From positions 1 through 51,749 of the IMG/VR virus record IMGVR_UViG_3300024518_003367: a stretch of 51,749 nucleotides of DNA, one strand, 5' to 3'. Position numbers and translations under genes: made by a program. The first letter of the stretch is position 1; the number at the start of each line of letters is the position of its first letter. The stretch is from a virus. This document shows, in pieces, positions 31,711-51,012 of the stretch. The notes below the pieces were generated by a model that was not told the DNA's origin, made no database searches, and was given only the letters and a program-made list of their open reading frames with translations.

Positions 31711-33045
31711 TTAAAGGTTCCATCTGGAGGTCTTCCACTTTTTGGCGCCGAACATCAGTTCTGTGACTGCCCACACCATGGCGTCCGCCCGGTCAGGCGA
31801 TCCACCTCCCAGATACTCGTCGGCGGTCAAGGCCAGCATCTGGTCTTCCAGTTTAGCGAAATTCCCTACGTGATGCACCCGGTTCTGCTCATACAAAGCA
31901 GCCACGGGCTCCGCCCGCCGCCCCTTGTGTTTGGCGGCTGACACACCCCGATAGCTGACATTTTCATCAATTGTCCGTATGACCGATTCTACAAGGTCGC
32001 CGCCTTGGTTCTTTTCCGCAACAATCCGGCTGGCCTTGAAGTCGTAGAACGCTCCCACCACCCGCCGGGCCCACTGATCCGGCGAACCCACCAGCGACAG
32101 ATCCTTCATGATGTAGGCGTGGTTATCTGAACCCAGCGCGGCCACGATGATCCCGCTCTCGTTGCTGTTGTCCTGCGAGGAAATGGCGGGGTCCACGCCG
32201 ATCACCAGCCGGACGATAGCCACGGTCATCTTCGCCACTCGATTACGCTCGATCATCTCCAGCGCCCACAGGGCACCCGGGAAGTCAGTCAGCACCTCGG
32301 CGTACAGTTCCTGCCGGCCGAGTCTGGTGCCCTCGTACTTCTGGATCACTCGCTCGATGAACTTCGGTGGCAGGTTGGCGATGTTGTCGTAACTCGAGCC
32401 GCGAGTGACGTAAACGCCGGGGTCTTTCAGTAGCTCTTTGATGATGGGGATCGGACGGGGGGTGGTGGACACGATGACGCGGGGCTTGCTCCCGAGGCGG
32501 AGTCCGAACTCAAGATTGTCCCACGTCTCTTGAGGGTAGTCGTACTTCGCCAACTCATCGACCCAAGCGTAGTGATGTTGGGGTCCACGTAGCTGGTCGG
32601 GTTCCTTCCCGCTGTACGTGGTACCTACACTCCCATTCGGCCAGACCAGTCGGCGGTTGCCCGGCTGGTACAGTGGCATGTTCCACGGCGGTGCTGTCGC
32701 GAGGATACCGGACTCACCCTCGACCAGCACATCGCGAGCGTCGGGACCAGTCTCACCGACCAGCGCGACACGCACCGGGGGATCGTCGGCCTCACCTACC
32801 CACTCGCGTACCGTCTCGGCACCAGTGCGCGTCTTGCCTTCGCCTCGACCCGCAAGGCGAAGCCAGATGACCCAGTCCTCCTCTGGGGTGCCCGGCTCAC
32901 CCTCCGGCAACTTCTGATTTTCACGCGCCCAGAAACTCCAATCAAATAGAAGTTTCTCGACATCCGCTTCACTCATTGTGTCGAGCGTTGCGAGGATGTC
33001 TTCGCGAGATTTACTAGCAATTTCTTCAGCAGTTGATAAAGTCAC
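31711..33045 (-). CDS. terL: terminase large subunit
   Basis: ATPase-nuclease that packages DNA. Walker A GRGEGKT at residues 66-72 and Walker B YAWVDE at 159-164, with the coupling phrase STTPRP near 193; the RNase H-like nuclease begins at VIGVDPAIS (Asp285) and ends with the ADRADAMVWA motif near 425. GTG 33045 is the longest start; ATG 32976 would still keep all motifs. The gene is first in the structural operon and divergent from the plus-strand promoter at 33048. Confidence 0.95.
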   Translation of the reverse strand: MTLSTAEEIASKSREDILATLDTMSEADVEKLLFDWSFWARENQKLPEGEPGTPEEDWVIWLRLAGRGEGKTRTGAETVREWVGEADDPPVRVALVGETGPDARDVLVEGESGILATAPPWNMPLYQPGNRRLVWPNGSVGTTYSGKEPDQLRGPQHHYAWVDELAKYDYPQETWDNLEFGLRLGSKPRVIVSTTPRPIPIIKELLKDPGVYVTRGSSYDNIANLPPKFIERVIQKYEGTRLGRQELYAEVLTDFPGALWALEMIERNRVAKMTVAIVRLVIGVDPAISSQDNSNESGIIVAALGSDNHAYIMKDLSLVGSPDQWARRVVGAFYDFKASRIVAEKNQGGDLVESVIRTIDENVSYRGVSAAKHKGRRAEPVAALYEQNRVHHVGNFAKLEDQMLALTADEYLGGGSPDRADAMVWAVTELMFGAKKWKTSRWNL

Positions 33046-37182: not shown

Positions 37183-37312
37183 GTTTTACTCCGTCTGAGG
37201 CCAGTCCGCAAAAGATACAGTGAAAGTCCCACTCGTACTCGGGTGGCGCCGGGCGCGTCGAATGCCAGCCGCCGCAGTGTGGGCAGAGCGCCGGGGGCTT
37301 CCTGTCACTCAT
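37046..37312 (-). CDS. zinc-ribbon protein with long overlap, 88 aa
   Basis: ATG 37312 overlaps the small terminase stop. CPHCGGWH and FHCIFCGL form a four-Cys ribbon within the first 37 residues. After about residue 43 the sequence becomes Arg/Asp-rich and lies over the next gene; a TAA in a neighbouring frame occurs just before that gene's start, so a one-base frameshift or sequencing error could explain the excess. Confidence 0.55.
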   Translation of the reverse strand: MSDRKPPALCPHCGGWHSTRPAPPEYEWDFHCIFCGLASDGVKHGRILDRDDRWDAVRGGQRPDASRVAASVESRQPRSRSDGLDDRP

Positions 37313-37895
37313 CGACTATCTCCGCATCCTCGATCGTCACATCGTCCTCTCGCGGGGGCATCAGTGCCTCGCCCGCCGTCCGGCGCTCCGCTATCGCCGT
37401 CAGCCGCTCGACCAATGTATCCTTGGCGCTGACCTCGACCTGTATCGGGTTGTCCGGGTCACCCTTGACCGTCGTCTCGAGTCGCTGTTGCCGGGCGAAC
37501 CGGCCGGCGTGGACCCGCTCGAGCCACCACGCCGCCGCCCGCCAGTCCTCGATCGCCGACGTCGTGACCTTGTTGACCATGTCCGTCTCGGCCATCGCCC
37601 GTGCTGTCTCCACACCCACGGCGAAGTCCATGTAGATGACCTCGCTCTCCACCAGTGGTTGGCGGTTTATCTCGTAGTTCTCGAGACGCGCGTACACTTC
37701 GCGGCCCAACTTCATCCAGTGGTGGAATCCGCCTTCGCTGATCCCACACGCCCGCGCGGCGGTGGCGACGAAGTTCCCCTCCAGTACCTTGGCGACGACC
37801 TCTTCCAGTTTCTCTTCCGTCAGCTTGCGCGGCCGGCCGGCGCCCGTGCGGATCTCCATCGCCTTGCCGATGTCCTTGTCAGGCGATCCGTCCAT
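37305..37895 (-). CDS. terminase small subunit-like protein, 196 aa
   Basis: AGGAGG ribosome site before ATG 37895. An N-terminal helix-turn-helix region (GRPRKLTEEKLEEVVAKVLE, then ACGISEGGFHHWMKLG) binds DNA, and the phrase IEDWRAAAWWLERVHAGRFA is typical of small terminases and phage-associated HTH terminase-like proteins. The Asp/Glu-rich tail may engage the large subunit. It is separated from terL by more than 4 kb of small genes and tRNAs, which is unusual. Confidence 0.75.
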   Translation of the reverse strand: MDGSPDKDIGKAMEIRTGAGRPRKLTEEKLEEVVAKVLEGNFVATAARACGISEGGFHHWMKLGREVYARLENYEINRQPLVESEVIYMDFAVGVETARAMAETDMVNKVTTSAIEDWRAAAWWLERVHAGRFARQQRLETTVKGDPDNPIQVEVSAKDTLVERLTAIAERRTAGEALMPPREDDVTIEDAEIVDE

Positions 37896-39796: not shown

Positions 39797-40335
39797 TACG
39801 TCCGGCGAGGGGATCTACTTCTGGCATCCATCCCGCCGAATCGCCTCCGTGTAAGGTATGCTATCTCAGCCCTTCCCTCACACCTCTTCGTTGCTGGCCG
39901 GGCGGTTTCCACGGGGTGCACATCCCTTGCCTCAACCCGGTTCGCAACTAGGCGCTGCCCTAAATGATCTAGGGGTGCAACTTTTTCGCTCTATATAAGG
40001 AAAGACAACTTACTCACTACCCTTATATACTATACATATCCAATAGAAGAAGAGAAGAGAGAGTCATCCCAGATACATAAGACTCATAAAAACTCAAATT
40101 TTTCGCAACCCCCAATCCAAGAATTCCACTATTTTTGCGCCCAGCTGGGCCCCCCGCTCCGCGCAAAAAAAATGCTGGGATTGGACTTTGTCCAATCTCG
40201 AGCCTGTGGCACGCCCCTTGCTGTAGCATGCAAGGGGCGTGCCAGACGGCGCCGGTCCTCGAGCGGCGCCGCGAAAAAGGTGGAGACGCACGGGCGGCGC
40301 CGGGTCCATTCCGGCGCCGCATCTCGCGCGACTAA
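39797..40335. other. AT-rich, hairpin-rich intergenic region
   Basis: Contains no convincing gene. At 39960-40150 it is strikingly AT-rich compared with the surrounding sequence. TATATAAGG at 39992-40000 faces its inverse copy at 40021-40029. GATTGGAC-TTT-GTCCAATC (40179-40197) and a 14-base perfect inverted repeat TGGCACGCCCCTTG with ten-base loop (40207-40244) follow. It is upstream of the leftward operon that leads to the structural genes and probably carries its promoter, although I see no sigma-70 promoter of good quality. Confidence 0.6.
40207..40244. repeat. 14-bp perfect inverted repeat
   Basis: TGGCACGCCCCTTG, ten-base loop CTGTAGCATG, CAAGGGGCGTGCCA. There is no T-run on either strand, so it is an unlikely terminator; an operator, cruciform or processing hairpin are possible. 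Confidence 0.8.
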
Positions 40336-40578
40336 TCAAGGCCCATAGTACATAGCCAGTCGGTCGAGCCCGCGCCGCTCGACGCCTTGCTGGCCACACG
40401 GCGCCGGTAGTGGCGGCGCCGGTAGGATTGTGACCCGGCGCGCGGGTCGCGCGTTACGGGGGCGTATTGGGCGCCGGTCCTCCACCGGCGCCGTAGTGGT
40501 GGTGTGGGCCGCGCGCCGTTCTATGTGTCGCGCAGCGGGGTAAGGGATGCCGAGCCAGCGGCTATAGTAGGGAGTCAT
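40336..40578 (-). CDS. hypothetical protein, 80 aa
   Basis: ATG 40578 overlaps the stop of 40575-41276 as ATGA. MTPYYSRWLGIPYPAARHIE then a Pro/Arg-rich remainder (VTILPAPPLPAPCGQQGVER), low complexity partly forced by the dense GGCGCC palindromes. The overlap favours translation, but composition makes this less certain. Confidence 0.5.
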   Translation of the reverse strand: MTPYYSRWLGIPYPAARHIERRAAHTTTTAPVEDRRPIRPRNARPARRVTILPAPPLPAPCGQQGVERRGLDRLAMYYGP

Positions 40579-41276
40579 GGCGCCACCTTGCCGGCGCCGC
40601 TGCCATGTGCCTCTATCAGTACGGCCGCGCCGCTGGCGCCGTCGCAACGGAGGCAATCCCGGCAATCGATGGCCGGCGCTGGGCAGTAGAATTCCCCGGG
40701 CACTGTGTCGCGATCGCCTAAGGCGGAGACTCGAAAGGTTCCCCAGCCGCGCGCGGTTGCCTCTTCCTGATCGGCTATACTGTCACACGATGCCTGCAGG
40801 ATGGAAGAGAAGCCGCGCGCCATCTTCGCGCGCCACTGATGTGTGTACCCAGTCCAGCCAGCGGAATGACTGACGAGAGATTGCCACATCTCGAGCGGCG
40901 CCGCTACCGGGTCACCGTAGGCGCCTAGCCTGATGCGATCAGTACGCCGGAAGAGAGAAGCCGGGTCAGTGCAATACTCGTAGCCGGCGCCGTTCTTGTA
41001 GCATTCCCAAATGCCGCGCGGCGCCTGTCCTACGTTCACATAACAACCACCACGCAGCGCCTTGCGAAAGGGACAGCCACCACAAATGGCGGAATCTTTC
41101 CCAGTCTCGAGCGCCTCGAGGGGCGGTATATCGGACCGTAGGATATACGCCTGTAGCATGTCGCCAGTTTTGCCGTTGCTCGATGGCTCGAGTATGCCGG
41201 ATATGATGACGACAATGGGCGCGCCGTTAATCCGGCTGACGCCCTCGTATGCAATCACGCTGTTGTCGTTTGACAT
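40575..41276 (-). CDS. conserved hypothetical phage protein (DUF7227-like), 233 aa
   Basis: Phrases LQAYILRSDIPPLEALETGK, AICGGCPFRKALRGGCYVNV, RLGAYGDPVAAPLEMWQSLV and TGYTHQWRA match a conserved phage/plasmid family I recall as DUF7227. The CGGCPFR...CYV cysteines and C-terminal CPAPAIDCRDCLRC could bind a metal or iron-sulfur cluster. In relatives it is associated with mobile elements; function unknown. Confidence 0.72.
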   Translation of the reverse strand: MSNDNSVIAYEGVSRINGAPIVVIISGILEPSSNGKTGDMLQAYILRSDIPPLEALETGKDSAICGGCPFRKALRGGCYVNVGQAPRGIWECYKNGAGYEYCTDPASLFRRTDRIRLGAYGDPVAAPLEMWQSLVSHSAGWTGYTHQWRAKMARGFSSILQASCDSIADQEEATARGWGTFRVSALGDRDTVPGEFYCPAPAIDCRDCLRCDGASGAAVLIEAHGSGAGKVAP

Positions 41277-41512
41277 TAGAACGACTGCAGCGGTCGTGCG
41301 AATGGCTTGAACGGCTCGACCGTATGAAAGGTACCGGTCAGGCTAGAAACGGCGCGCCGGCTAATCCTGCCAGCGGGACGGACGGCGCGAGTCAGGCAAC
41401 GGCCAGCAGGGCGCGCGGCTCGCGCGATGCGCCGGTCATCAGCCAGCACGATGACAGTCCGAAGCATGTGGAAGAAAGCAGCAGCAGCGAGAGTCAGGGC
41501 GATTGAAAACAT
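41276..41512 (-). CDS. small membrane-anchored basic protein, 78 aa
   Basis: ATG 41512 is directly preceded by a GGTTACTTGACTC leader variant. MFSIALTLAAAAFFHMLRTV is a membrane helix; the remainder is Arg-rich (RRIARAARPAGRCLTRAVRP) and would stay cytoplasmic. Composition is skewed by GGCGCGCC palindromes. Touches the next gene by one base. Confidence 0.5.
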   Translation of the reverse strand: MFSIALTLAAAAFFHMLRTVIVLADDRRIARAARPAGRCLTRAVRPAGRISRRAVSSLTGTFHTVEPFKPFARPLQSF

Positions 41513-41525
41513 GAGTCAAGTAACC
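41513..41525 (-). promoter_or_regulatory. start-associated leader variant before 41276-41512
   Basis: GGTTACTTGACTC on the minus strand, one base longer than the common GGTTACTGACTC, directly adjoining the ATG. No promoter of the right-arm type lies upstream. Confidence 0.5.
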
Positions 41526-41565
41526 TTTCCGGCGCGCATCATGGCGCGCCGTTTTCTTGAGTGAG

Positions 41566-41649
41566 TCAGTCGCGAATAGCTAAGGCGATAACGCAAGCGG
41601 CAAAACATACCAGTAGAACAATGAACAGCGCGAAGACAGGAACAGACAC
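41566..41649 (-). CDS. possible membrane microprotein, 27 aa
   Basis: GTG 41649 after GGGAGTTCCTACC encodes SVPVFALFIVLLVCFAACVI then ALAIRD, almost a pure membrane helix. Small hydrophobic peptides of this sort occur in phages, but the length makes a chance frame possible. Confidence 0.4.
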   Translation of the reverse strand: MSVPVFALFIVLLVCFAACVIALAIRD

Positions 41650-41695
41650 GGTAGGAACTCCCGGCGCGCCGTTGCCGGCGCGCCCATGGTGAAGA

Positions 41696-42580
41696 TTATT
41701 CAAACGTGCGACCCAGTACGAGATCAGCGGCCTTCTGTGCGCGCGCCGCTGCTGTTACTACCAACTTGCTGTCGCCTTTCAACCGTTGCAGCCAGTTGGC
41801 TACGTAGGCGGCTGACTGATCGATGAAGCTATCAAGCGGCAAGCCGCCTTCTGCTGCTAGGAAACTGGCGCCCATCTCTGCAGTCAATTCTTCCTGCGAA
41901 TATGATTCCGACCCGAACGGCTGTGCGCCGCTGTCGGCTGGGAACCTGTCAAGCCGGCTGCTGTGGCCGGTAGCGTGTACCATCTCATGGAAGAGCGTGC
42001 AATAGTACGCCGGCGCCGTTTCGAATGCGTCAAGGTTCGGCATTCCGATAGCGTCAGCCGATGGCGAGTAATACGCCTGACTCTTGCCATGTTCTACTTT
42101 GCAGCCGTCTTCCCAGCCGGCTGCTATTGCGGCTGCTGATTCGATGGCATCATGGGTCTGACCGGCTGCAGCATCTTCAGCCGCTTGCCATTCCGTCAGC
42201 CGCTTGTGGCTTATGCCGTCGCACTGGCTGACATTGAACACTGTGTAGTAGCGCATAATGGGGAAGGCCTGCTTTCCCTTTGCGGCTGCTGCGGCCTTTT
42301 TCTTTTCATCGGGCCACAGCCAGAAGACAACGGGCGAACCTTTCTCGCCTTTCCGAACCTGACCGCCTAACGTCTTCGCTTGCTTGTAGGAAACGAAGTA
42401 AGGCGAGGAGTAGCCAAGCATTCCCAGCAGGAAGACGTTTATCCCTCGGTACGCCTTGCCGCTTTTCAAGTTGGCCGGCGCCGCTGTGCCGGCGCGCCAT
42501 GGCTTGTGCCATGGTAGCGTGCCGTCAGTCTCGATTGCTGCAATAATTCTGTCGGTGATGATCTCGTAAACAGTAGCCAT
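41696..42580 (-). CDS. ArdC-like antirestriction / ssDNA-binding metallopeptidase, 294 aa
   Basis: Two parts: an N-terminal ArdC-type ssDNA-binding domain (about 1-125, YEIITDRIIAAIETDGTLPW, then GKAYRGINVFLLG and GGQVRKGEKGSPVVFW) and a C-terminal zinc metallopeptidase (LFHEMVHATGHSSRLDR with HEMVH at 198-202 and a likely Glu ligand in EELTAEMGASF). ArdC proteins protect incoming DNA against host restriction. Start at ATG 42580 behind GAGGG. Codon use is more Gcu/Ctt-like than neighbours, consistent with transfer. Confidence 0.85.
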   Translation of the reverse strand: MATVYEIITDRIIAAIETDGTLPWHKPWRAGTAAPANLKSGKAYRGINVFLLGMLGYSSPYFVSYKQAKTLGGQVRKGEKGSPVVFWLWPDEKKKAAAAAKGKQAFPIMRYYTVFNVSQCDGISHKRLTEWQAAEDAAAGQTHDAIESAAAIAAGWEDGCKVEHGKSQAYYSPSADAIGMPNLDAFETAPAYYCTLFHEMVHATGHSSRLDRFPADSGAQPFGSESYSQEELTAEMGASFLAAEGGLPLDSFIDQSAAYVANWLQRLKGDSKLVVTAAARAQKAADLVLGRTFE

Positions 42581-42606
42581 GATAGGCGCCCTCGAGTGTA
42601 GTGAGT

Positions 42607-42870
42607 TTAGAAGTCCCAGCCGTTTGGGATAGTGCCGTTGCGCATCAGGGAGCCGATAAGAGAAAGCATTGCTTGCGAGCCAGTGCCGCGCGTTTCCCAA
42701 TCCATTGTTTCTATGGTACCGCGCGGTCCAACCGTCAGCGCGTAGCATGGGTGGTCCCGTTCTGCCGGCATCAGCGTGAAGTCGTTTCGCTGGCCGAAGT
42801 AATCGAGCGGCGCGCCGGTACCGTCAGGGTAGCAATACTCGGGAGCGCCGTTGCTGTCGTAGTCAGTCAT
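42607..42870 (-). CDS. hypothetical protein, 87 aa
   Basis: MTDYDSNGAPEYCYPDGTGA, then TIETMDWETRGTGSQAMLSL; compact acidic alpha/beta protein. AAGG in GGCGAAAGGCTACTGACCT serves as ribosome site; the same stretch contains a GGCTACTGACC leader variant. Located next to ArdC-like gene, so an accessory role in DNA defence is possible but unsupported. Confidence 0.62.
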   Translation of the reverse strand: MTDYDSNGAPEYCYPDGTGAPLDYFGQRNDFTLMPAERDHPCYALTVGPRGTIETMDWETRGTGSQAMLSLIGSLMRNGTIPNGWDF

Positions 42871-42882
42871 AGGTCAGTAGCC
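42871..42882 (-). promoter_or_regulatory. start-associated leader variant before 42607-42870
   Basis: GGCTACTGACCT adjoining the ATG, a one-base variant of the right-arm leader core, within GGCGAAAGG ribosome-site sequence. Confidence 0.45.
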
Positions 42883-43181
42883 TTTCGCCTTAGCGGCTAA
42901 CGCTAGGGCACAGCCGGCAAGCGGCGCCGGCATATAATGAACGAAGGATGAAACATTGCCTCGAGTGAGGCGGAGAGTCGGGGGGCGTTTCAAGCGGCGC
43001 GGCTGTCGGTGTTTCACCACCATGGGACCGGGCCTATTCTGTGAGGGAATAAGTTAACTATCCATGGCTGATAACGCAATACCTGAGTTTCAAGGCCTAG
43101 GTATAGGCTATTTCGGGTTATGGGTCACAAATATACTATGTCCCGAAAATACGGCCTTGTAAGTCATTGCCCTGTAACGAC

Positions 43182-43210
43182 TTGTCCGAACGGCAGGAGG
43201 TTGGTATACT
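43182..43210 (+). promoter_or_regulatory. possible plus-strand promoter
   Basis: TTGTCC, 17-base spacer, TATACT. The following sequence runs towards the dyad array and no good gene follows, so any transcript would be non-coding or a primer. Confidence 0.35.
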
Positions 43211-43477
43211 AGTATGGGTAGGACATAAACATCCGTTAGACGGCAACCTCGGGCGTTCTAGGGGTATACCAGCCGCAAAGCCATTGCCTAGGCGGTTTCC
43301 GGCTGGCGCCTGCTGGCGCCGGCTGGCGCCTGCTGTATATAATGAACGCGCGAAGCAAGAGGCGTGCCAACTATGCATATCTTAACTATGGCATAGAACT
43401 TGCTCTGGCTATTGCAAGGTATGTGCCATAGATGTGGCACGAATCTTGTGCAGGGAAAGTGCCGCGCCGGCACCACA

Positions 43478-43727
43478 TGTAGCGTCGAAACCACAGGGCT
43501 ATGTGGCGGAGACGCAACGTAGCGCCGACGCAACATCGGTGTGGCGTCGATCCCACGGCGAAATGCGAAAGTGTGGCTCGAGCGCCACGGCAGAATACGA
43601 CAATGTTGCATCGACGCCATATGTGGTGCTCACGCAACAACTTCGCAAAATACCGTGGCGGCGGCGCGACACCCTCGCGTTTTGCCGTGGCGTCGGCGCA
43701 ACATAAAAGTGTGGTGGGAACGCCACA
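43478..43727. repeat. array of ten 18-bp imperfect palindromes
   Basis: Consensus YGTGGCG-NNNN-CGCMACA. Copies start at 43478, 43502, 43518, 43540, 43572, 43604, 43622, 43654, 43686 and 43710; examples are TGTGGCTCGAGCGCCACG and TGTGGTGGGAACGCCACA. Steps of 32 bases, about three helical turns, occur four times, with others of 16-24. Such phased dyads are typical of binding sites for a dimeric protein at replication origins, partition sites or operator arrays. Confidence 0.9.
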
Positions 43728-43730
43728 GGA

Positions 43731-43794
43731 CTTTGACTCGGGTTTAACTCGGATGGGTTTAACTCGCCTTTAACTCGAGGTCGCCTTTAACTCG
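43731..43794. repeat. five TTTAACTCG-type repeats
   Basis: CTTTGACTCG (43731-43740) followed by TTTAACTCG at 43743, 43758, 43769 and 43786, all in one orientation and adjoining the dyad array. CAGGACTTTGACTCG plus CTTTAACTCG recurs at 47843-47870, and single copies lie at the ends of or within other right-arm genes. Confidence 0.75.
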
Positions 43795-43857
43795 ACACGA
43801 ACAACGCCGGCAACCATCGAGTCGCGCGATCGCGCGATCGTTCGTTACACGCGATCC

Positions 43858-44085
43858 TCAGAGCATCGTCAGCGTCTGCACCGCCTGACTCCGCTCCTGT
43901 ATCCGGCGGGCCACCTCAGTGGCGAGGCGTCCGCCGCCCAGCCCGCCGACCTGCTCAGTCAGCACCTCACTGACAATCATGCTCGCCTGCAGTAGGCCCT
44001 CACTCTCGCCGACCTGCATCCCCAGATTGAAGCACTTGCGTTTCAGTGCCTCGAACTCCGCCTCGGTCATTTCTCGATCAGCCAT
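43858..44085 (-). CDS. hypothetical helical protein, 75 aa
   Basis: ATG 44085 lies in the end of the upstream gene. MADREMTEAEFEALKRKCFN then NLGMQVGESEGLLQASMIVS, entirely helical. The last gene of its operon, ending just before the TTTAACTCG repeats. No family recognised. Confidence 0.68.
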   Translation of the reverse strand: MADREMTEAEFEALKRKCFNLGMQVGESEGLLQASMIVSEVLTEQVGGLGGGRLATEVARRIQERSQAVQTLTML

Positions 44086-44245
44086 CAGACTTCCTCGATT
44101 CCTCGATCCGCTTGCCCAGTGGCAGCAGGATGTCCCTGCCACAGGTCGGGCAGTAGACGGACGTGATGTTGTCGTATATCCACCGCTCGATGGCGTAGCT
44201 CGTCGCGCAGTCGGGACAGGTGATCGCCACTTGATCCGCTGCCAT
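44078..44245 (-). CDS. small zinc-ribbon protein, 55 aa
   Basis: ATG 44245 overlaps the preceding stop (TGATG) with GGGAGGCTTG upstream. ITCPDCATSYAIERW and SVYCPTCGRDILLP form a four-Cys ribbon, similar to zinc-ribbon domains of transcription-associated proteins. Confidence 0.72.
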   Translation of the reverse strand: MAADQVAITCPDCATSYAIERWIYDNITSVYCPTCGRDILLPLGKRIEESRKSDG

Positions 44246-44463
44246 CAAGCCTCCCACGTTTCGATCGCGTCCGGCCACCGCCGGGCGATCTCTTCACTCG
44301 TCACACAGAAGCACTGGCCGCACCACTGCGGGCCCGTGTGGTGATTCTCGCCCCACCACTCTACCGTGATGCTCCACCACCGCACGCCGGCGCGCATCTG
44401 CTTGCCCCAGTACTCGAGGTACACTCGAGTCTTGTCGCGTGCCGGCTTGGTTTGCGTGGTCAT
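44245..44463 (-). CDS. hypothetical protein, 72 aa
   Basis: ATG 44463 overlaps the upstream stop (TGATG). MTTQTKPARDKTRVYLEYWG, then TVEWWGENHHTGPQWCGQCF: tryptophan-rich with a CGQC pair and HH, so metal binding is possible. No family recognised. Confidence 0.68.
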   Translation of the reverse strand: MTTQTKPARDKTRVYLEYWGKQMRAGVRWWSITVEWWGENHHTGPQWCGQCFCVTSEEIARRWPDAIETWEA

Positions 44464-44759
44464 CAGTCCCCCGGCGCCAGCTGGTCGGCCTCGACGTCGG
44501 CCCACTCGGGCTCGTCGGGCTCGACCTCGGCCGGCTCGGTGGTGACGCACTCGAGGTACAGCGACACCGGCGTGCCGTAGTTATGAATGATGAACGTCTG
44601 CCGGCCGATGCCGGTCTGGACGTCCACGTTGCGCCGTGGCTCCACGCGCCAGCTGTGGCCGATGATGTTACCCAGCCCCCGGCCGTACTTGATCGCGTCC
44701 TCATGACTGGGGAAACCTCGGGCCAGCGCCTTGTGGCGTGTCCATTCAGCGTATCTCAT
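44463..44759 (-). CDS. hypothetical protein, 98 aa
   Basis: MRYAEWTRHKALARGFPSHE, a short N-terminal alpha-beta part (DAIKYGRGLGNIIGHSWRVE), then QTFIIHNYGTPVSLYLECVT and an acidic, Pro-rich tail. Four bases after the stop of 44763-44984. Unknown function. Confidence 0.68.
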   Translation of the reverse strand: MRYAEWTRHKALARGFPSHEDAIKYGRGLGNIIGHSWRVEPRRNVDVQTGIGRQTFIIHNYGTPVSLYLECVTTEPAEVEPDEPEWADVEADQLAPGD

Positions 44760-44762
44760 TGG

Positions 44763-44984
44763 TCAACCCCTCTCTCTCAGCGACCGGCACAGCGCGATGA
44801 TGTCTTGATCGTTCGTGCTGTCCTCGGGGAAGTCGAGCGAACTCGAGCACATGAAGTAGTCCGGCCGGCGGAAGACGATGAATGCGTTGTACTCTTCGAC
44901 CGTGGTGATCCGCGCCAGCACTTTGTTGGTGTCGATGTCGGACACTTCGATCGCGTCGTTGTTGACCGTCATGTAGTATCTCAT
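44763..44984 (-). CDS. hypothetical protein, 73 aa
   Basis: First gene of an operon behind promoter 45026-45054; GAGGGGGAC ribosome site. MRYYMTVNNDAIEVSDIDTN then EEYNAFIVFRRPDYFMCSSS; small alpha/beta protein without a recognised family. Confidence 0.72.
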   Translation of the reverse strand: MRYYMTVNNDAIEVSDIDTNKVLARITTVEEYNAFIVFRRPDYFMCSSSLDFPEDSTNDQDIIALCRSLRERG

Positions 44985-45025
44985 TTTGTCCCCCTCGAGT
45001 GTTGAGTCAGTAACCATCTACGACT

Positions 45026-45054
45026 AACCTAATCAACTACACATATCCTGTCAA
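45026..45054 (-). promoter_or_regulatory. early-type promoter for 44763-44984 operon
   Basis: TTGACA (45049-45054), 17-base spacer, TAGGTT (45026-45031) on the minus strand; leader GGTTACTGACTC at 45004-45015, then the GAGGGGGAC ribosome site. Confidence 0.85.
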
Positions 45055-45169
45055 GCCTCCAATCCTGCTCGAGTCTGGCGCCCCAGCTGAGGCGCCTTGG
45101 GACCAGCGCCATGTTCCGCCACTGGCCCCGGGGGAGACGATCGGTGACTCAGGCCGACCGTCGTGTGCC

Positions 45170-45640
45170 TTACGCCTCATCCCTCCTCGGGAGGTAGTAC
45201 TGCGTGTGCCGGATGTTGTCGCGCGGCACGATGGCGTAGCCGGCCTTATGGAGCGCCTTGACGATCTCGCCCGCTCTATCGTTGAGGTTCGTCGCCAGTG
45301 CCAGCGCCTCGACCTGTTGATCGCGCGACTCTTCGTACTCTCGCCGGACGCGCCGCCTGATCACCTGACGAGCGCGGGCGTTCTCTTCGGCCAGTGCGTA
45401 GTTACTACGCTTGCCGTAGTTGCGCCACGACACCACCTCGCCCCGCTTCATCAACCGCGCCAGCGCGTTCTTCCGTTCTCGAGCGTCTGACCTAGTCGCC
45501 ATGCGACCGACAACGGCGCCCATGAACCGGGCCTGCTTGTTGAAGGCCGTCTCGCTCTGGTTGTCCCAGTCGGCCGGCGGGGTCAGTGCCTCGATGATGT
45601 CCATCTCCGCCTCGAGCCGTATCTGTTGTGCCATGCCCAT
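45170..45640 (-). CDS. hypothetical helical protein, 156 aa
   Basis: MGMAQQIRLEAEMDIIEALT; a long, charged, helical protein (RKNALARLMKRGEVVSWRNY, VIRRRVRREYEESRDQQVEA). The basic middle could touch nucleic acid. AAGGGGGAC ribosome site, led by the promoter at 45687-45715. No family recognised. Confidence 0.72.
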   Translation of the reverse strand: MGMAQQIRLEAEMDIIEALTPPADWDNQSETAFNKQARFMGAVVGRMATRSDARERKNALARLMKRGEVVSWRNYGKRSNYALAEENARARQVIRRRVRREYEESRDQQVEALALATNLNDRAGEIVKALHKAGYAIVPRDNIRHTQYYLPRRDEA

Positions 45641-45686
45641 TGTGTCCCCCTTGCTTCGTAGTAAGTCAGTAACCGTTGCTGGATAC

Positions 45687-45715
45687 AAGGTAATCAATGG
45701 TTGATATCCTGTCAA
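45687..45715 (-). promoter_or_regulatory. early-type promoter for 45170-45640
   Basis: TTGACA (45710-45715), 17-base spacer, TACCTT (45687-45692); leader GGTTACTGACT at 45664-45674. The -35 lies just upstream of the stop of 45720-46133. Confidence 0.85.
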
Positions 45716-45719
45716 CCCC

Positions 45720-46133
45720 TCAGATATAGATCTCTCCCGGCGCCAGCGTCCGCATGATGTACTCCGCCGCTTGTCCGATGTTGCCCCACGTTGCCTCGAG
45801 GGCCGGGTTGCGGTACTGCTGGTCCGCCACGCCTTCCTCGAGATCTTCCGGCCGCACCACGTCCTCCCAGAAGTGGCTCGGCAGTTTGAATTCCCAAACG
45901 ATGATGCTGTCGCTGATCCGATGCTGGAACACCGCCAGTGCCTGAGTGTAGCCGGGCCGGCGCCGCATGAAGGTCAGCCCCTTCTCCCTGCCGTTAGACC
46001 ACGGCCGGATTAGGAACTCCGTGATCGCCAGACCCGGCTCGTCCCACTCCGTCATCGCTTCCTCGATGCGAGGGACGACCAAGTGCGCCACGGCCCACGC
46101 CTGATCGCTGAGGCCAAGTTGGAGTACGCTCAT
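45720..46133 (-). CDS. hypothetical protein, 137 aa
   Basis: MSVLQLGLSDQAWAVAHLVV; alpha/beta protein with FLIRPWSNGREKGLTFMRRR and HRISDSIIVWEFKLPSHFWE. GAGGGGGGC ribosome site; the start overlaps the previous stop (TAATG). Unknown function. Confidence 0.72.
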   Translation of the reverse strand: MSVLQLGLSDQAWAVAHLVVPRIEEAMTEWDEPGLAITEFLIRPWSNGREKGLTFMRRRPGYTQALAVFQHRISDSIIVWEFKLPSHFWEDVVRPEDLEEGVADQQYRNPALEATWGNIGQAAEYIMRTLAPGEIYI

Positions 46134-46336
46134 TAGAAGCCCCCCTCGTCCACGCTGGACACGTTGACCAGCACGTTCTCGAGGCCACGTCGTGTGTTCA
46201 CCGCCGACCGCACCGTCTGATACACCACATCACTCAGGTTGAGTTCAGTGAGCGCGTCATCGGCCTCGTTGGCCTGCTCATCGGTGATCAGCCCAGAGGG
46301 AACCTCGAGCCGCACCACGATCTCCATCAGTACCAT
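46133..46336 (-). CDS. hypothetical protein, 67 aa
   Basis: MVLMEIVVRLEVPSGLITDE, then DALTELNLSDVVYQTVRSAV, a beta-alpha-beta pattern. AGGGGGCAAG ribosome site. Led by the promoter at 46382-46410. No family recognised. Confidence 0.7.
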   Translation of the reverse strand: MVLMEIVVRLEVPSGLITDEQANEADDALTELNLSDVVYQTVRSAVNTRRGLENVLVNVSSVDEGGF

Positions 46337-46381
46337 TCTTGCCCCCTTTACTTTGTTGTGAGTCAGTAACCATCTGCAACC

Positions 46382-46410
46382 AACCTAATCAATAGTGCAT
46401 ATCTTGTCAA
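46382..46410 (-). promoter_or_regulatory. early-type promoter for 46133-46336
   Basis: TTGACA (46405-46410), 17-base spacer, TAGGTT (46382-46387); leader GGTTACTGACTC at 46360-46371. The 52 bases 46360-46411 are identical to 47147-47198. Confidence 0.87.
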
Positions 46411-46419
46411 GTGTTCTCT

Positions 46420-46620
46420 TCAGCCACCTTTGACGATGTAGTGACCGGGGTAATTGTCTACCGGGTTGGTCGCCGGGCGGAACAGGCGGTACAGGTCGTC
46501 GGTCCCTAGTGCGGCATCGAAGGCGTAGCTGATGCGGTGCCGGATGCGATAGCCTTGGACGGCGTCGATGCTGTCGAAGGTCTTGGCCTCGTTGATGAAG
46601 GCGGTGAGGTGGATCGGCAT
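46420..46620 (-). CDS. hypothetical protein, 66 aa
   Basis: MPIHLTAFINEAKTFDSIDA, then VQGYRIRHRISYAFDAALGT and LYRLFRPATNPVDNYPGHYI. AAGGGGAAC ribosome site preceded by the leader at 46644-46655. Unknown function. Confidence 0.7.
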   Translation of the reverse strand: MPIHLTAFINEAKTFDSIDAVQGYRIRHRISYAFDAALGTDDLYRLFRPATNPVDNYPGHYIVKGG

Positions 46621-46643
46621 GTCGTGTTCCCCTTCGCTGTGGT

Positions 46644-46655
46644 GAGTCAGTAACC
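46644..46655 (-). promoter_or_regulatory. start-associated leader before 46420-46620
   Basis: GGTTACTGACTC; its TACTGA includes the stop codon of the upstream gene. There is no -35/-10 here, so this copy is tied to the gene start rather than to a promoter. Confidence 0.75.
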
Positions 46656-46847
46656 TTCGAGTGACCGTTTGTACTCATCTCTCGCCGTGATGGCGTTGTT
46701 GCAATTCCTAGTCGCGACACTCAGTGCAGCCCTCGCCGCCAGCTTGCCTTGGCCGAGGCTGAAGGCTTCGGCGTGGCGCGCTTTCGCTGCCCGGTAAATG
46801 GCTTTCGTCCGCAGCACTTCGGCCCTGAGTTCGTCTAGCTTGTCCAC
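46647..46847 (-). CDS. hypothetical coiled-coil protein, 66 aa
   Basis: Start chosen at GTG 46847 because the AAAGGGGAACAAA ribosome site has the same form and spacing as at neighbouring genes; an earlier GTG at 46865 would put that site inside the gene. Helical throughout: DKLDELRAEVLRTKAIYRAA and LSVATRNCNNAITARDEYKR. Confidence 0.65.
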   Translation of the reverse strand: MDKLDELRAEVLRTKAIYRAAKARHAEAFSLGQGKLAARAALSVATRNCNNAITARDEYKRSLEGY

Positions 46848-46868
46848 TTTGTTCCCCTTTGCCACAGT

Positions 46869-46880
46869 GAGTCAGTAACC
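46869..46880 (-). promoter_or_regulatory. start-associated leader before 46647-46847
   Basis: GGTTACTGACTC located between the stop of 46886-47125 and the ribosome site, again without a promoter of its own. Confidence 0.75.
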
Positions 46881-46885
46881 TTCGT

Positions 46886-47125
46886 CTACCTGCCCTGCTG
46901 TTCCCGCTCGATCAAACTGGTTGCCCATTCCTTGCACTCCCGCACCGTGTCCTGATACCGATAATCCTGATCCTTCAGGTTGTCCCGTACCGAATACGAA
47001 TCGGGGTACACCGTGCTACGGAAATTCGGTGAAATCGTGAAGCGACCTTCCATGCTCTCCCAGTAACCGCCCTCTGTCGCATCACCGGGCTCGCCCGTGA
47101 ACAGCCAGTGGATCTTGATCTTCAT
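46886..47125 (-). CDS. hypothetical protein, 79 aa
   Basis: MKIKIHWLFTGEPGDATEGG, then FTISPNFRSTVYPDSYSVRD and DTVRECKEWATSLIEREQQG: a beta first half and helical end. AAGGGGAAC ribosome site; led by the promoter at 47169-47197. Unknown function. Confidence 0.7.
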   Translation of the reverse strand: MKIKIHWLFTGEPGDATEGGYWESMEGRFTISPNFRSTVYPDSYSVRDNLKDQDYRYQDTVRECKEWATSLIEREQQGR

Positions 47126-47168
47126 TGTGTTCCCCTTTGCTACAGTGAGTCAGTAACCATCTGCAACC

Positions 47169-47197
47169 AACCTAATCAATAGTGCATATCTTGTCAA
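47169..47197 (-). promoter_or_regulatory. early-type promoter for 46886-47125 operon
   Basis: TTGACA (47192-47197), 17-base spacer, TAGGTT (47169-47174); leader GGTTACTGACTC at 47147-47158. Duplicate of the promoter at 46382-46410 over 52 bases. Confidence 0.87.
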
Positions 47198-47210
47198 GGG
47201 CCAATTTTGG

Positions 47211-47320
47211 AGGTGGTTGACTGCTGGTGACACGACTGCTTTCTCAGTCTACGAGGCACCGGAATCTCCCGTATGGGAGCCCTGATGGAAAGTCCCCTAG
47301 CCACCAACAATGAACCACCT
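47211..47320 (-). ncRNA. possible branched structured RNA
   Basis: An outer stem AGGTGGTT/AACCACCT (47211-47218 with 47313-47320) encloses GACTG/CAGTC (47234-47249), CTCCC/GGGAG (47266-47279) and GGTG/CACC pairs. It follows directly after the tRNA-like element at 47329-47399 in the same transcript direction. It lacks a T-loop, so it is not a tRNA. Folding by eye only. Confidence 0.35.
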
Positions 47321-47328
47321 GCTGCTAA

Positions 47329-47399
47329 TGGAAGCGGTGGGAATCGAACCCACACCGGGCGAGGACTACTCAGTCGCGCGGTCAGTCACCTTCGCCCCC
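47329..47399 (-). tRNA. degenerate tRNA-like element
   Basis: Acceptor GGGGGCG/CGCTTCC (two G:U pairs) and T-arm GTGGG-TTCGATT-CCCAC are intact, with an A discriminator. The region between holds 39 bases, almost tRNA-sized, but no clean five-pair anticodon stem; GACTGAGTAGTC can form a short hairpin. It starts eight bases after the stop of 47407-47625. A decayed tRNA or a processing signal. Confidence 0.5.
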
Positions 47400-47406
47400 T
47401 CCTTAC

Positions 47407-47625
47407 TTACACTACTACGGTGCTCATCCCTGCTGCGTACCGCCGGCTGAACTCGGCGTTGACCACGTCGATGTCCTGCCTTGCCTGTCGAATCGATTCG
47501 GAGGTTCCGCTGACATGGAAGATCCGATTGTGACAACTTCTCCAGAGGTGATTCAGCGTGTTCACCGTAACGCCCCTGACGTCCTCGGCCTGCAACCGTT
47601 CGTAGTCCAATTGTACCAGTGCCAT
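47407..47625 (-). CDS. hypothetical protein, 72 aa
   Basis: MALVQLDYERLQAEDVRGVT, then LNHLWRSCHNRIFHVSGTSE and RQARQDIDVVNAEFSRRYAA, a helical protein. GAGGGGGAC ribosome site, led by the promoter at 47669-47697. Unknown function. Confidence 0.7.
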   Translation of the reverse strand: MALVQLDYERLQAEDVRGVTVNTLNHLWRSCHNRIFHVSGTSESIRQARQDIDVVNAEFSRRYAAGMSTVVV

Positions 47626-47668
47626 CGTGTCCCCCTCGAGTGTTGAGTCAGTAACCGTTGCTACACAC

Positions 47669-47697
47669 AAGGTAATCAATGGTGCATACCAGCGCAA
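47669..47697 (-). promoter_or_regulatory. early-type promoter for 47407-47625
   Basis: TTGCGC (47692-47697, weaker than TTGACA), 17-base spacer, TACCTT (47669-47674); leader GGTTACTGACTC at 47645-47656. Confidence 0.75.
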
Positions 47698-47715
47698 CCC
47701 CCAATTTCCTCGAGT

Positions 47716-47763
47716 GGACCGGACGGGAATCGAACCCGCCTTCCCAGTCGCGTGTACCGGCCC
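47716..47763 (-). ncRNA. T-arm minihelix 2 (tRNA-like without anticodon arm)
   Basis: Seven-base acceptor-like stem GGGCCGG/CCGGTCC, a 17-base linker containing CGCGACTGGGAAG, and a T-arm GCGGG-TTCGATT-CCCGT; 48 bases in all. There is no D-arm or anticodon arm. The acceptor/T-arm minihelix is the minimal form recognised by RNase P. Confidence 0.6.
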
Positions 47764-47768
47764 GGGAG

Positions 47769-47843
47769 GAGAAGTTGAGGAACCAGAGGGGGGAATCGAA
47801 CCCACCCATTCCCAGTGCGCTTGCTCTGGCCCCCCAACCTCTC
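47769..47843 (-). ncRNA. T-arm minihelix 1 on a 20-bp stem
   Basis: A continuous 20-pair stem (47824-47843 with 47769-47788, including several G:U pairs) carries a T-arm GTGGG-TTCGATT-CCCCC and an 18-base linker with GCGCACTGGGAATGG. It lies between the stop of 47863-48219 and minihelix 2, and shares the ACTGGGAA linker core with it. Confidence 0.65.
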
Positions 47844-47862
47844 AGGACTTTGACTCGAACCT

Positions 47863-48219
47863 TTAACTCGTTTTGTGCGCCCGGCCGTAGCGAGCGACCT
47901 CGGACGTTTCCGTGATCGTGTCCTCCCAGCCCTTGTTCTTACGGGCCTCGTCCGCCTTGGCCTCGGCAATGATCGCAGCCTTGAGGAGTTTAGTCGCGAA
48001 CTCCACAGCATAGTGTGCCTCCATCCCGTTGACCTCGGCAAACGTGTTGACACGCTTAGTCTCTCTCTCTTCGCCGTATGGCTTGATCGATTCGACGGCG
48101 CTGAATGACACCGTGTGGTCCGAATGGACACGGAACCCGATGTGCTGAGTGACATTCTCGTTCTTGCCATAGTGCTGGACAGTTTGCTGCTCCAGCTGGC
48201 CAGTGGTGATCTCGGTCAC
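47863..48219 (-). CDS. hypothetical protein, 118 aa
   Basis: GTG start at 48219 behind GGGAGGTACGTC, overlapping the upstream stop as GTGA. MTEITTGQLEQQTVQHYGKN, then VHSDHTVSFSAVESIKPYGE and HYAVEFATKLLKAAIIAEAK; alpha/beta with Lys/Glu-rich end. The stop lies in a CTTTAACTCG repeat. Unknown function. Confidence 0.7.
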   Translation of the reverse strand: MTEITTGQLEQQTVQHYGKNENVTQHIGFRVHSDHTVSFSAVESIKPYGEERETKRVNTFAEVNGMEAHYAVEFATKLLKAAIIAEAKADEARKNKGWEDTITETSEVARYGRAHKTS

Positions 48220-48719
48220 GACGTACCTCCCATCTGTGCGACGTAGAAATTCGCCGCGCCCTGCGCCTCTTCCTCGCTGTCATACCAATCCATGTCCTCG
48301 TCCGGCCGGTCGGGTCCGTGTGGTGACACCTTCCACTGATTCGGCATACCGATGTCGCTGTAGTCGAACAACATCACCGCAGGCGTCGTGTCCTCGCCGT
48401 ACCGGACGAACTGTCTCACCGGGGCCACTTTCACGTTGCGGTTGTGGTCGGGGACGATCTCACTGACGGTCCCGTCGAGGTCAATCACCTGCTGCTTGTA
48501 CTCTACCCTGATGAACGCCTTGTTCGCGTCAGGATGTGGTCCGGTGCAGATGACGCCAGCCAGTGCGAAGATCACGGCTTTGCCGTCACCGTTTGAGGTG
48601 ACCTGATAGCCGCTGGTGCCGCGCCGCAACCGCATCCCGTCGGCCAGCCGGAGGATCGTGCCCGGCTCCACCTTCAGGACGATCGCGCCGTTGCCGTGTA
48701 CCTGCTCGAGTGAAAACAT
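48216..48719 (-). CDS. hypothetical beta-rich protein, 167 aa
   Basis: MFSLEQVHGNGAIVLKVEPG, then TSNGDGKAVIFALAGVICTG and RVEYKQQVIDLDGTVSEIVP, followed by a helical end EEEAQGAANFYVAQMG. AAGGGGGCACG ribosome site. Led by promoter 48826-48854 with an unusually long leader. Unknown function. Confidence 0.72.
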   Translation of the reverse strand: MFSLEQVHGNGAIVLKVEPGTILRLADGMRLRRGTSGYQVTSNGDGKAVIFALAGVICTGPHPDANKAFIRVEYKQQVIDLDGTVSEIVPDHNRNVKVAPVRQFVRYGEDTTPAVMLFDYSDIGMPNQWKVSPHGPDRPDEDMDWYDSEEEAQGAANFYVAQMGGTS

Positions 48720-48825
48720 CGTGCCCCCTTGCTGTTAAGTAAGTCAGTAACCATCAGTGCGATGAGTGACGAACCCCGTCAAGGCTTTGCAGTCCAATCA
48801 AAGGCCCGCCCCTCACGCTAGGCAC

Positions 48826-48854
48826 AAGGTAATCAATGGCACATATTCTGTCAA
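48826..48854 (-). promoter_or_regulatory. early-type promoter for 48216-48719 operon
   Basis: TTGACA (48849-48854), 17-base spacer, TACCTT (48826-48831). The leader GGTTACTGACTT (48741-48752) is about 70 bases downstream rather than 10-20; a second poor TTGACG box lies between them. Nothing else is seen in the 48720-48964 gap. Confidence 0.8.
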
Positions 48855-48964
48855 GAGGGGAAAGTGGGCAGAGGATGTGATGCCCAGCACAGGTCGAATT
48901 TTATGGATGAACGCCCGACTCCGGCGCCCCTCGAGTGGCCAGTTTAGAGACTTGGCTTAGGTCT

Positions 48965-49132
48965 TTAACTCGCGATCGAGATCTCGTCCACCTTGAAGGT
49001 AGTGCCTTCGACGTCCTTGGTGCAGATCAGGCCGCACTTGAACGCCCGTTCCTTGTCCGTGTAAAACATGTCGGTATCGGGCCCCATGTGCCTCCCGTTT
49101 GCATGATAGTACGTCACGCGCCATGCTGTCAT
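48965..49132 (-). CDS. hypothetical small protein, 55 aa
   Basis: ATG 49132 overlaps the upstream TGA as ATGA. MTAWRVTYYHANGRHMGPDT, then DKERAFKCGLICTKDVEGTT: a beta-alpha-beta arrangement that recalls other small phage proteins of unknown function. The stop is within a CTTTAACTCG copy. Clean overlap supports it despite its length. Confidence 0.65.
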   Translation of the reverse strand: MTAWRVTYYHANGRHMGPDTDMFYTDKERAFKCGLICTKDVEGTTFKVDEISIAS

Positions 49133-49428
49133 GATGCCGTCCCCTCTTCCTCGTCAGTCAGGGCGAGGGAAGCCAGCAACCCCATGATGGACGCGCTCGC
49201 CTCCTCAACTCTCTTTAACTCGGTGATCGCCTCGGCGTCGAATGTCTGCTTGCCGACTCGCTTCCGCATCGTACCGTACCGAGCCTCGCGCAGGATGGCG
49301 ACGAAATCGGCGTGCCCGGCGGCGTCCACCGTGATGATTGTGTGCGCCGGCCGGAAGACAGCGGGAGTCTCGCCCTCGAAGTCTCCACCACCCACCTTCG
49401 TTTCAGGCACTAGTTTGACTCGGATCAT
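49129..49428 (-). CDS. hypothetical protein, 99 aa
   Basis: ATG 49428 overlaps the previous stop. MIRVKLVPETKVGGGDFEGE, then RPAHTIITVDAAGHADFVAI and a coiled-coil-like end TELKRVEEASASIMGLLASL. No family recognised. Confidence 0.7.
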   Translation of the reverse strand: MIRVKLVPETKVGGGDFEGETPAVFRPAHTIITVDAAGHADFVAILREARYGTMRKRVGKQTFDAEAITELKRVEEASASIMGLLASLALTDEEEGTAS

Positions 49429-49601
49429 CGGATCTCCCTCACGGTCGCCCGCTGTACCTCGGGCGATAACTCGGGGACGTCGGCCCGGCGTGTGTCGTCG
49501 CACGCCACACACAGGACGGGGAAGCCATGGGCCTTCTCGAAGTACGTACCGCACCACGAACACATCAGGCCATCGAGCATATCGTTAGCGACCTCACCCA
49601 T
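49425..49601 (-). CDS. small zinc-ribbon protein, 58 aa
   Basis: ATG 49601 overlaps the upstream gene by eight bases. LMCSWCGTYFEKAHGFPVLC then VACDDT is a compact CxxC...CxxC ribbon common in small phage and actinobacterial proteins of unknown function. Confidence 0.72.
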   Translation of the reverse strand: MGEVANDMLDGLMCSWCGTYFEKAHGFPVLCVACDDTRRADVPELSPEVQRATVREIR

Positions 49602-49827
49602 TGGACGGCCATGGGTCAGCGTTGAACACGACGTTCGTGCCATGACGACGGGCCGTCACTTCCGGCACGGCGACCTCGATGCCGTGCGGCACAGCGTTGA
49701 CGTGAATCCTCAATGCGGCCACGTCGTCGTAGAGGCCAGCCTCTTTGACGTTCTTCGTGTACCCTTGGTGGTTCGGTCGCCACCACATGCGATGTTCGTG
49801 CGACCAAATCATGTACTGTTCACCCAT
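49594..49827 (-). CDS. conserved small phage protein, 77 aa
   Basis: MGEQYMIWSHEHRMWWRPNH then QGYTKNVKEAGLYDDVAALR: the opening 'YxIWSxEHxxWWRPNxxGYT' phrase is a recurring motif in small proteins of unrelated tailed phages; function unknown. Overlaps both neighbours by eight bases. Confidence 0.75.
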   Translation of the reverse strand: MGEQYMIWSHEHRMWWRPNHQGYTKNVKEAGLYDDVAALRIHVNAVPHGIEVAVPEVTARRHGTNVVFNADPWPSNG

Positions 49828-50218
49828 TGATCAACCCCTTGATCTCCTCGACCGTCTCAAGAGCCAAGACGTTATCTACGTCTCGCTTGAACGAAATCAC
49901 CGAACCGTCATGCACCCCGGCGTCCGCCTCTGGAAAAGATTTCTTGCAGTCAGGCACCACGTCGGTGTCAACGACCATGATGCTCGGCTTGACAGATTGA
50001 ATAGTGTCAGACGAAAGAAGAATCTTGTTCCCATCCCGGTTGGTTACTTCGATCTTCTTGTCCGATACAGCCAGCTGCGCTCGGATGTCTTCGAGCGCGA
50101 GGCAGAGCGCGGTGACGGCGCTGGTGATCGCCATGCCGATCTCGAACGGACCAGCAGGGCTTGCGGCCTTTAACTCGCTCGCCGCCTCAAAGAGAAGACT
50201 CTGAGCATCTTTGTTCAT
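49820..50218 (-). CDS. hypothetical protein, 132 aa
   Basis: MNKDAQSLLFEAASELKAAS, with a helical first half (FEIGMAITSAVTALCLALED) and a beta-type second half (VTNRDGNKILLSSDTIQSVK, GSVISFKRDVDNVLAL). No family recognised. ATG overlaps the preceding stop as ATGA. Confidence 0.7.
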   Translation of the reverse strand: MNKDAQSLLFEAASELKAASPAGPFEIGMAITSAVTALCLALEDIRAQLAVSDKKIEVTNRDGNKILLSSDTIQSVKPSIMVVDTDVVPDCKKSFPEADAGVHDGSVISFKRDVDNVLALETVEEIKGLING

Positions 50219-50945: not shown

Positions 50946-50983
50946 TCCCTGCTCCTCTCTAAGCCAGTAACCATCTACCAAGC

Positions 50984-51012
50984 AACCTAATCAAAGGTAC
51001 ATATTCTGTCAA
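50984..51012 (-). promoter_or_regulatory. early-type promoter for 50583-50945 operon
   Basis: TTGACA (51007-51012), 17-base spacer, TAGGTT (50984-50989); leader variant GGTTACTGGCTT at 50961-50972. The TGA stop of the upstream gene is part of the -35 box. Confidence 0.83.

Follow-up and report, generated by a model that had tools for sequence, protein, structure and literature searches.

The window analysed in this study, 51,749 bp in length, constitutes one virus record, and the same phage is represented at ~99.9% identity by contig IMGVR_UViG_3300024520_000062 (67,188 bp), referred to as G001. Both ends of G001 align to window positions 26521-26668 and form an imperfect overlap of 148 bp, which indicates a circular genome of which ~15.3 kb are missing from the window; judged from these ends, the genome very probably closes as a circle of ~67.04 kb. 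Gene calling with a simple author-written codon-usage script yielded 88 genes, of which 86 are located on the minus strand. In the order of transcription, an early/replication block ending at position 43858 and encoding an XRE-type protein, a SNF2-type helicase, a primase-helicase, a YqaJ nuclease and many small ORFs is followed by a gap containing an array of dyad repeats and then by the ArdC block, which comprises the genes for ArdC and phrog_2554, terS, tRNA genes, terL and the portal, capsid and tail genes (Table 1). The array gap is the second-largest among 42 gaps, and the ORFs across the array have negative codon-usage scores, in agreement with the initial annotation that had regarded the region as gene-free. 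Searches for DNA similarity with window positions 40000-51749 against phages and with the 1-kb gap against phages and plasmids gave no match. The one close relative detected, G001, is nearly identical and too similar for conservation testing. The ten dyads are the same in both sequences, and three differences occur over 5.5 kb, one of them (43597) between two dyads.

Table 1. Coordinates of the array, the adjoining sequence features and the genes discussed in the text (window positions unless another sequence is named)
Feature	Position	Strand	Remarks
Ten-dyad array	43478..43727	.	18-bp dyads, half-site YGTKGCG, 4-bp centre
Dyad starts	43478, 43502, 43518, 43540, 43572, 43604, 43622, 43654, 43686, 43710		
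Candidate eleventh dyad, degenerate	43460..43477	.	TGCCGCGCCGGCACCACA, 12.6 bits
Gene-free gap with array	42871..43857	.	Called as 42749-43857 if the 87-aa ORF 42607-42870 is not a gene
Five CGAGTYAAA copies	43732..43794	-	TTTAACTCG when read on the + strand
Perfect 14-bp palindrome	43827..43840	.	CGATCGCGCGATCG
Low-GC segment adjoining array	43331..43436	.	In the bottom 1% of 100-bp windows
Second low-GC segment	43022..43229	.	Minimum GC 0.40, lowest 0.35% of genome
Three overlapping CCGGCTGGCGCCTGCTG-type repeats	43299..43335	.	10 bp apart
Sigma-70-like TTGTCC-N17-TATACT	43182..43210	+	Directed toward array
ArdC-type anti-restriction protein	41696..42748	-	PF08401, PF18818; adjoins gap
Terminase small subunit (terS)	37305..37895	-	phrog_4102; 5.6 kb from array
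Terminase large subunit (terL)	31711..33045	-	~10.5 kb from array
Small zinc-ribbon protein	44078..44278	-	PF13717, E 2.8e-6, under Pfam cut-off; other side of array
XRE-type HTH protein, 109 aa	L106:1034-1363		PF13560, E 5.8e-8; ~22.6 kb from array in G001

All ten dyads listed in the initial annotation were found again at exactly the same positions. The consensus YGTGGCG-N4-CGCMACA, which every copy had been said to fit, is overly strict as first written, since an exact fit was obtained for the copy at 43686 alone, and on the better strand six copies carry one mismatch, two carry two and one (43478) carries three. The looser half-site YGTNGCG leaves zero to two mismatches per copy, and the nucleotides of the 20 half-sites are distributed by position as T14/C6, G19/A1, T20, G12/T5/A2/C1, G20, C16/T3/G1 and G16/T2/A2. 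With up to two mismatches allowed, the stricter consensus matched 15 times in the whole window, both strands combined, in each case within 43502-43727, compared with 3.39 +/- 2.05 matches (maximum 9) in 100 dinucleotide shuffles. A PSSM assigned 16.7-23.2 bits to the ten dyads, scores that are partly circular because the matrix was derived from the dyads themselves; the next best site is the possible degenerate copy at 43460, and the remaining window does not exceed 11.7 bits. Sixty simulated windows generated with a first-order Markov model contained a total of ten sites of at least 16 bits, and never two of them within 250 bp. The dyad array is real and far beyond chance expectation. Moreover, a search of the window together with the missing 15 kb, where the top sites scored 13.0 and 10.5 bits, revealed no second cluster, so that the dyad does not occur at the same density throughout the genome.

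The steps between the dyad starts are 24, 16, 22, 32, 32, 18, 32, 32 and 24 bp, and the four 32-bp steps noted previously are thus borne out as four of nine. The suggestion that these steps place the sites on one face of the helix was retained in part: some helical phasing is present, with a maximum vector strength of 0.59-0.60 at 10.4-10.5 bp, but the effect is modest, as 2.9% of random step sets equal it. No report of a ten-dyad array was found among the literature matches listed.

The arms of an RNA hairpin should covary, and those of the array do not: position 4 is matched by its complement in the other arm in three of the ten copies, against 3.9 expected under independence, and in 18 of 40 hand-picked sites from several phages, against 17.3 expected. 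This pattern fits a DNA site whose halves are read separately by a symmetric dimer, and the dyads are regarded as putative DNA sites of this kind and not as RNA hairpins. An RNA element in the form of a row of transcript hairpins would be consistent with the partial pairing possible in each dyad, but in view of the missing covariation, and with no match at the Rfam curated threshold within 38-50 kb, this already disfavoured reading appears extremely improbable.

The repeats reported to lie next to the array are present, with TTTGACTCG at 43732 and TTTAACTCG at 43743, 43758, 43769 and 43786, but they are not specific to it, because the strand that carries them contains the word (with A/G at position 4) seven more times in the interval from 47.8 to 53 kb. 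Counted as CGAGTYAAA, the motif occurs 12 times, exclusively on the minus strand (43732-51749 plus the missing part, at circle position 52980), and five of these copies adjoin the array. The nearby palindrome was confirmed as a perfect 14-bp sequence. In addition to the features listed in Table 1, the gap holds tandem GC-rich repeats, and sigma-70-like matches are no more frequent in this region than in shuffled sequences.

The occurrence of similar dyads was then surveyed in a viral collection with two two-dyad patterns, both derived from this array. The first pattern detected 70 stretches, compared with 3 for a single permuted control of equal base composition, and the second detected 29; together they define 83 different loci, of which 19 represent one O-gene family and many others appear as repeats inside ORFs. 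Dyad clusters recur in unrelated phages that each share at most two proteins with the array phage, and three settings stood out on inspection, namely an initiator gene, the terminase genes and the region between divergent HTH genes, with G005, G012 and G020 lying outside all of them. In the first setting, relatives of a single lambda-O-like initiator (47-100% identical) are encoded at each of the 19 loci with a GTGGCGTTTCCACCAC-type dyad pair, but at none of six loci without this pair in the same test. In the representative L137, the dyads are located 23 bp apart within the initiator gene, with an AT-rich stretch and the gene for a DnaB-like helicase behind them; the deduced initiator matches the replication-initiation families phrog_5810 (E 1.1e-95) and the O-like phrog_345 (E 4.4e-34).

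The second setting comprises dyads directly upstream of a Nu1-type terS gene in several lineages (L154, L161, L269 and L277), upstream of terS-terL (G017 and G018), between terS and terL (L166), just past terS (L272 and L279) or adjoining terL, with a presumed terS that shows no match to terminase families (G015 and L116); in G006 the dyads lie 2.6 kb before terL, with a weak terS match. Among 17 other dyad-cluster records, which were hand-picked as apparently non-coding clusters and include several partial contigs, TerL was detectable in 13 (the exceptions being G013, L130, L158 and G019) by means of 19 queries, 13 of which stem from such records or the array phage, and the dyads are located within 2.6 kb of TerL in 10 of these 13. 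The combined P value for nearness to TerL in 14 records, including the array phage, is 0.076, and the link between dyads and terminase is therefore suggestive but not proven. In the third setting, several dyads are found between divergent HTH genes of Micromonospora rosaria (L236/L141) and of a similar element (L273), where they are taken to mark a putative operator position.

A stricter pattern applied to a genome collection yielded 74 stretches, 19 of them from one Gemmatimonadetes MAG. The latter contains TGTAGCG-N4-CGCTACA-type dyads on 19 SLSF01 contigs, often ~42 bp apart (for example L187, L193, L194, L209, L217, L246, L248 and L253). The cyanophage-like sequence L143/G006 contains five dyads at 16064-16179 with steps of 24, 18, 32 and 24 bp, all of which are present in the array, a likeness that may be due to chance. 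No cluster of the array dyad was detected in the TerL-related genomes Strzyga, MD02, Mae-JY09 and ctuI7215, nor in MEP301, Hodr, S-CRES1 and PS3, relatives of other array phages; the comparison covers the best 5-8 sites of each genome, some of which are partial, and ctuI7215 has one lone site of 15.3 bits at 44852.

The initial annotation had found no cognate protein in the window, a statement that is not contradicted here, and the full genome adds one phage-encoded HTH regulator outside the window, the 109-aa XRE-type protein, which nothing links to the array. As a universal binder this type of protein was rejected, since HTH_3 was detected in 6 of 14 array-bearing records, in four of them above the cut-off; a search with a 60-residue piece of the XRE protein matched none of seven records, an empty answer that counts as no evidence in that search. 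An all-against-all BLASTP comparison of 18 sequence sets likewise yielded no protein common to all array phages, as sharing was confined to related lineages or single pairs; examples of proteins shared with the array phage are the YqaJ nuclease and the SNF2-type helicase. O-like initiators are encoded in 3 of 17 records, two of which belong to the O-gene family itself, the third being the L269 record; the O-like initiator profile PF04492 had no match in G001, and no known initiator domain was recognised near the array. The recognised DNA-binding candidates of the array phage are the XRE protein, TerS, the primase-helicase and the zinc-ribbon protein, the last of which is a candidate binder by position only. 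Since most of the small early proteins tested had no match at all, the binder may be among the unrecognised ones. Single-sequence structure models of the 304-aa primase neighbour and of TerS reached a mean pLDDT of 32.0 and 40.1, respectively, and were not relied on. The neighbouring phrog_2554 gene was also considered as a general companion of dyad arrays and was not seen in 80 loci, apart from the one in its own phage.

The array most likely serves in starting DNA copying or in switching on the late genes. The reading that we tentatively prefer, with a rough probability of 40%, is that it serves as an iteron-type site for initiator binding at the phage origin of replication, since an array of this copy number near an AT-rich stretch and within a large gap free of genes is reminiscent of an iteron origin. 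In the model proposed here for protein binding, initiator identity, melting and loading at the array, the ten dyads would be bound by multiple dimers of an initiator, encoded by the phage or by the host, which would wrap ~250 bp and help to open the adjacent AT-rich DNA, at which the phage primase-helicase would be loaded. This model is consistent with the presence of ten dyads within 250 bp at a single location in the genome, with the independent variation of their halves and with the low GC content nearby (genome quantile 0.0035). The GC content near the dyads falls into approximately the lowest 1% of the respective genome in five of eight array-bearing records tested (the array phage, G005, G014, G015 and G018, the last four with quantiles of 0.0057, 0.0101, 0.0001 and 0.0025), and the dyads are located in the largest or second-largest gap of the array phage, G005, G012, G015 and G018. 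On the other hand, no such low-GC flank is present in G006, G007 and G012 (quantiles 0.35, 0.06 and 0.54), and low-GC gaps are common in the array phage itself, where 3 of 14 gaps of at least 200 bp reach the same level. The replication genes are not adjacent, with the primase gene ~13.5 kb from the array, and the dyads of many other phages lie at terminase genes instead. The GC-skew analysis suggested in the initial annotation left the array unmarked, as the detrended extremes are located at 40.2 and 10.0 kb, and the patterns tried for a DnaA box gave no match.

Comparison with known replication origins yielded a mixed picture. The lambda origin consists of iterons within the O gene, an AT-rich tract and a helicase gene (PMC7466680), and the dyads of L137 show the same layout, which favours an origin. 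The array resembles this type in that imperfect inverted repeats of 18-19 bp form a cluster, with low-GC segments nearby of a kind also present in other large gaps of the genome, and the similar dyads of other phages are located inside an O-like gene; it differs in having ten copies, where lambda-type origins have four or six, in its irregular spacing, and in lying outside genes in a phage in which no O-like initiator was detected. The origin of the PLE satellite with its RepA_N iterons (PMC7145576) shares semi-palindromic repeats in a noncoding region to which the initiator gene is not adjacent, whereas no RepA_N-like protein was recognised in the array phage with the families searched. The Krampusvirus-type phages Gilda and Sparcetus encode a related primase-helicase (~34% identical) and likewise have clusters of inverted repeats with a TGTGG core in a gap, but their half-site is ATTGTGG, not the 18-bp dyad, and the clusters are located directly upstream of the primase gene. 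This arrangement is not repeated in the primase relatives Wollypog, in which the gap has few such repeats, and MW202657, in which it measures merely ~115 bp. The Microbacterium phage Gilda (L323/L324) has two clusters of seven ATTGTGG/CCACAAT repeats, at 32255-32365 and from 56219, one of which is located just upstream of the primase/helicase gene.

The location of the array where the late block begins and the terminase-linked clusters of other phages favour a role as operator or packaging site. Of the three functions named in the initial annotation, origin, centromere and multi-operator, the first and the last were retained. As a multi-operator, the array would be bound cooperatively by a dimeric HTH regulator that switches the leftward block of ArdC, terS, terL and structural (late) genes on or off; this is the main rival to the origin reading and somewhat less likely. 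Apart from its position in the direction of transcription and the dyads at or near terminase genes elsewhere, this function is suggested by the XRE-type protein of the phage and by the dyads between divergent HTH genes in Micromonospora rosaria and L273. These inferred operators carry the same dyad in three to four copies, beside or over the starts of regulator genes, but ten would be a large number of sites for an operator, scanning for promoters beside the array gave no minus-strand sigma-70 match, and the limited occurrence of HTH_3 among the array-bearing records also speaks against this function. The models used detected no tyrosine integrase in G001, which weakens a repressor of the lysogeny type. 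Late genes of phages are also controlled by small DNA-binding proteins such as Ogr of P2 and B of 186, and the consensus of Ogr/delta activators is TGT-N12-ACA; the five annotated P2 and 186 sites fail to match the dyad, and a late-activator site of this type was rejected. Binding of the terminase small subunit (or of a helper) to start packaging, in the manner of a pac or cosB site, is an unlikely function of the array. The nearness of the dyads to TerL in the hand-picked records, several of them short, and the repeats at terS in the pac site of SPP1 (PMC4737164) are in line with it, but neither terminase gene of the array phage lies beside the array, and the P value given above argues for caution. 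The small subunits of the dyad records match phrog_57, 1482, 51, 309 and weakly 9231, with 4102 for the array phage and no terminase family for G015 and L116, so that one site shared by such different families is unexpected. In SF6/SPP1, individual DNA-binding domains of the small terminase did not require the pac repeats in order to bind (PMC4737164).

A partition centromere of a plasmid-like phage, recognised by an RHH or ParB-like protein, would agree with clustered dyads in a gene-free region and with the adjacent ArdC gene, which is of plasmid type. As ParB_N (PF02195) was detected in none of the 17 array-bearing records and no ParA-type ATPase of the AAA_31 family (PF13614) in G001, the ParB-type centromere proposed in the initial annotation is unsupported and a centromere very improbable. 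The study of PLE and ICP1 notes that a predicted rolling-circle origin may lie near the pac site of a phage (PMC7145576), so that the origin, operator and packaging functions are not necessarily exclusive. A single widespread factor, perhaps host-encoded, might even read TGTKGCG-N4-CGCMACA in unrelated phages at the origin, at the start of the late operon and at the packaging site, with the ten-site array as its densest form coupling replication to packaging, which we consider distinctly unlikely. Iteron-like and operator arrays are of a known kind, and the array alone thus represents no new class; the uncommon aspect is the clustering of closely similar dyads at initiator genes, at terminase genes and between HTH genes in phages without a detected common binder. 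If one factor does read all of them, the dyads would constitute a common switch of unrelated phages, and if there is no single factor, the identity of a dyad alone cannot separate an origin from an operator or a packaging site.

Several further features were recorded in this and in other genomes. The ArdC and phrog_2554 genes are part of an island (39800-43500) rich in GGCGCC, GGCGCGCC and GCGCGC, with 16, 5 and 14 copies, respectively, in the 2-kb bin from 40001, compared with 0-7, 0-2 and 0-4 in the other bins; its GC skew is near zero or positive rather than negative, and the island was possibly acquired. On the minus strand, tmRNA/tRNA-like fragments with T-arm motifs are located at 47326-47399 and 47686-47739, with scores under the Rfam gathering scores (28 bits versus 47, and 19.7 versus 84). 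A promoter-leader-like block that includes a 54-bp exact repeat recurs before early genes at 46358-46411 and 47145-47198 and near 45003, 45664, 46850 and 47628. Arrays of other dyads were observed as well: eleven GGGCCT-N-AGGCCT-type dyads occupy ~270 bp of L034 (4977-5248), and Synechococcus phage S-CRES1 (L319) carries two arrays of a different, GTGGACA-type dyad at 3232-3357 and 31517-31663, with six and seven copies ~21-24 bp apart, the first of which separates the divergently oriented replication gene gp3 from gp4.
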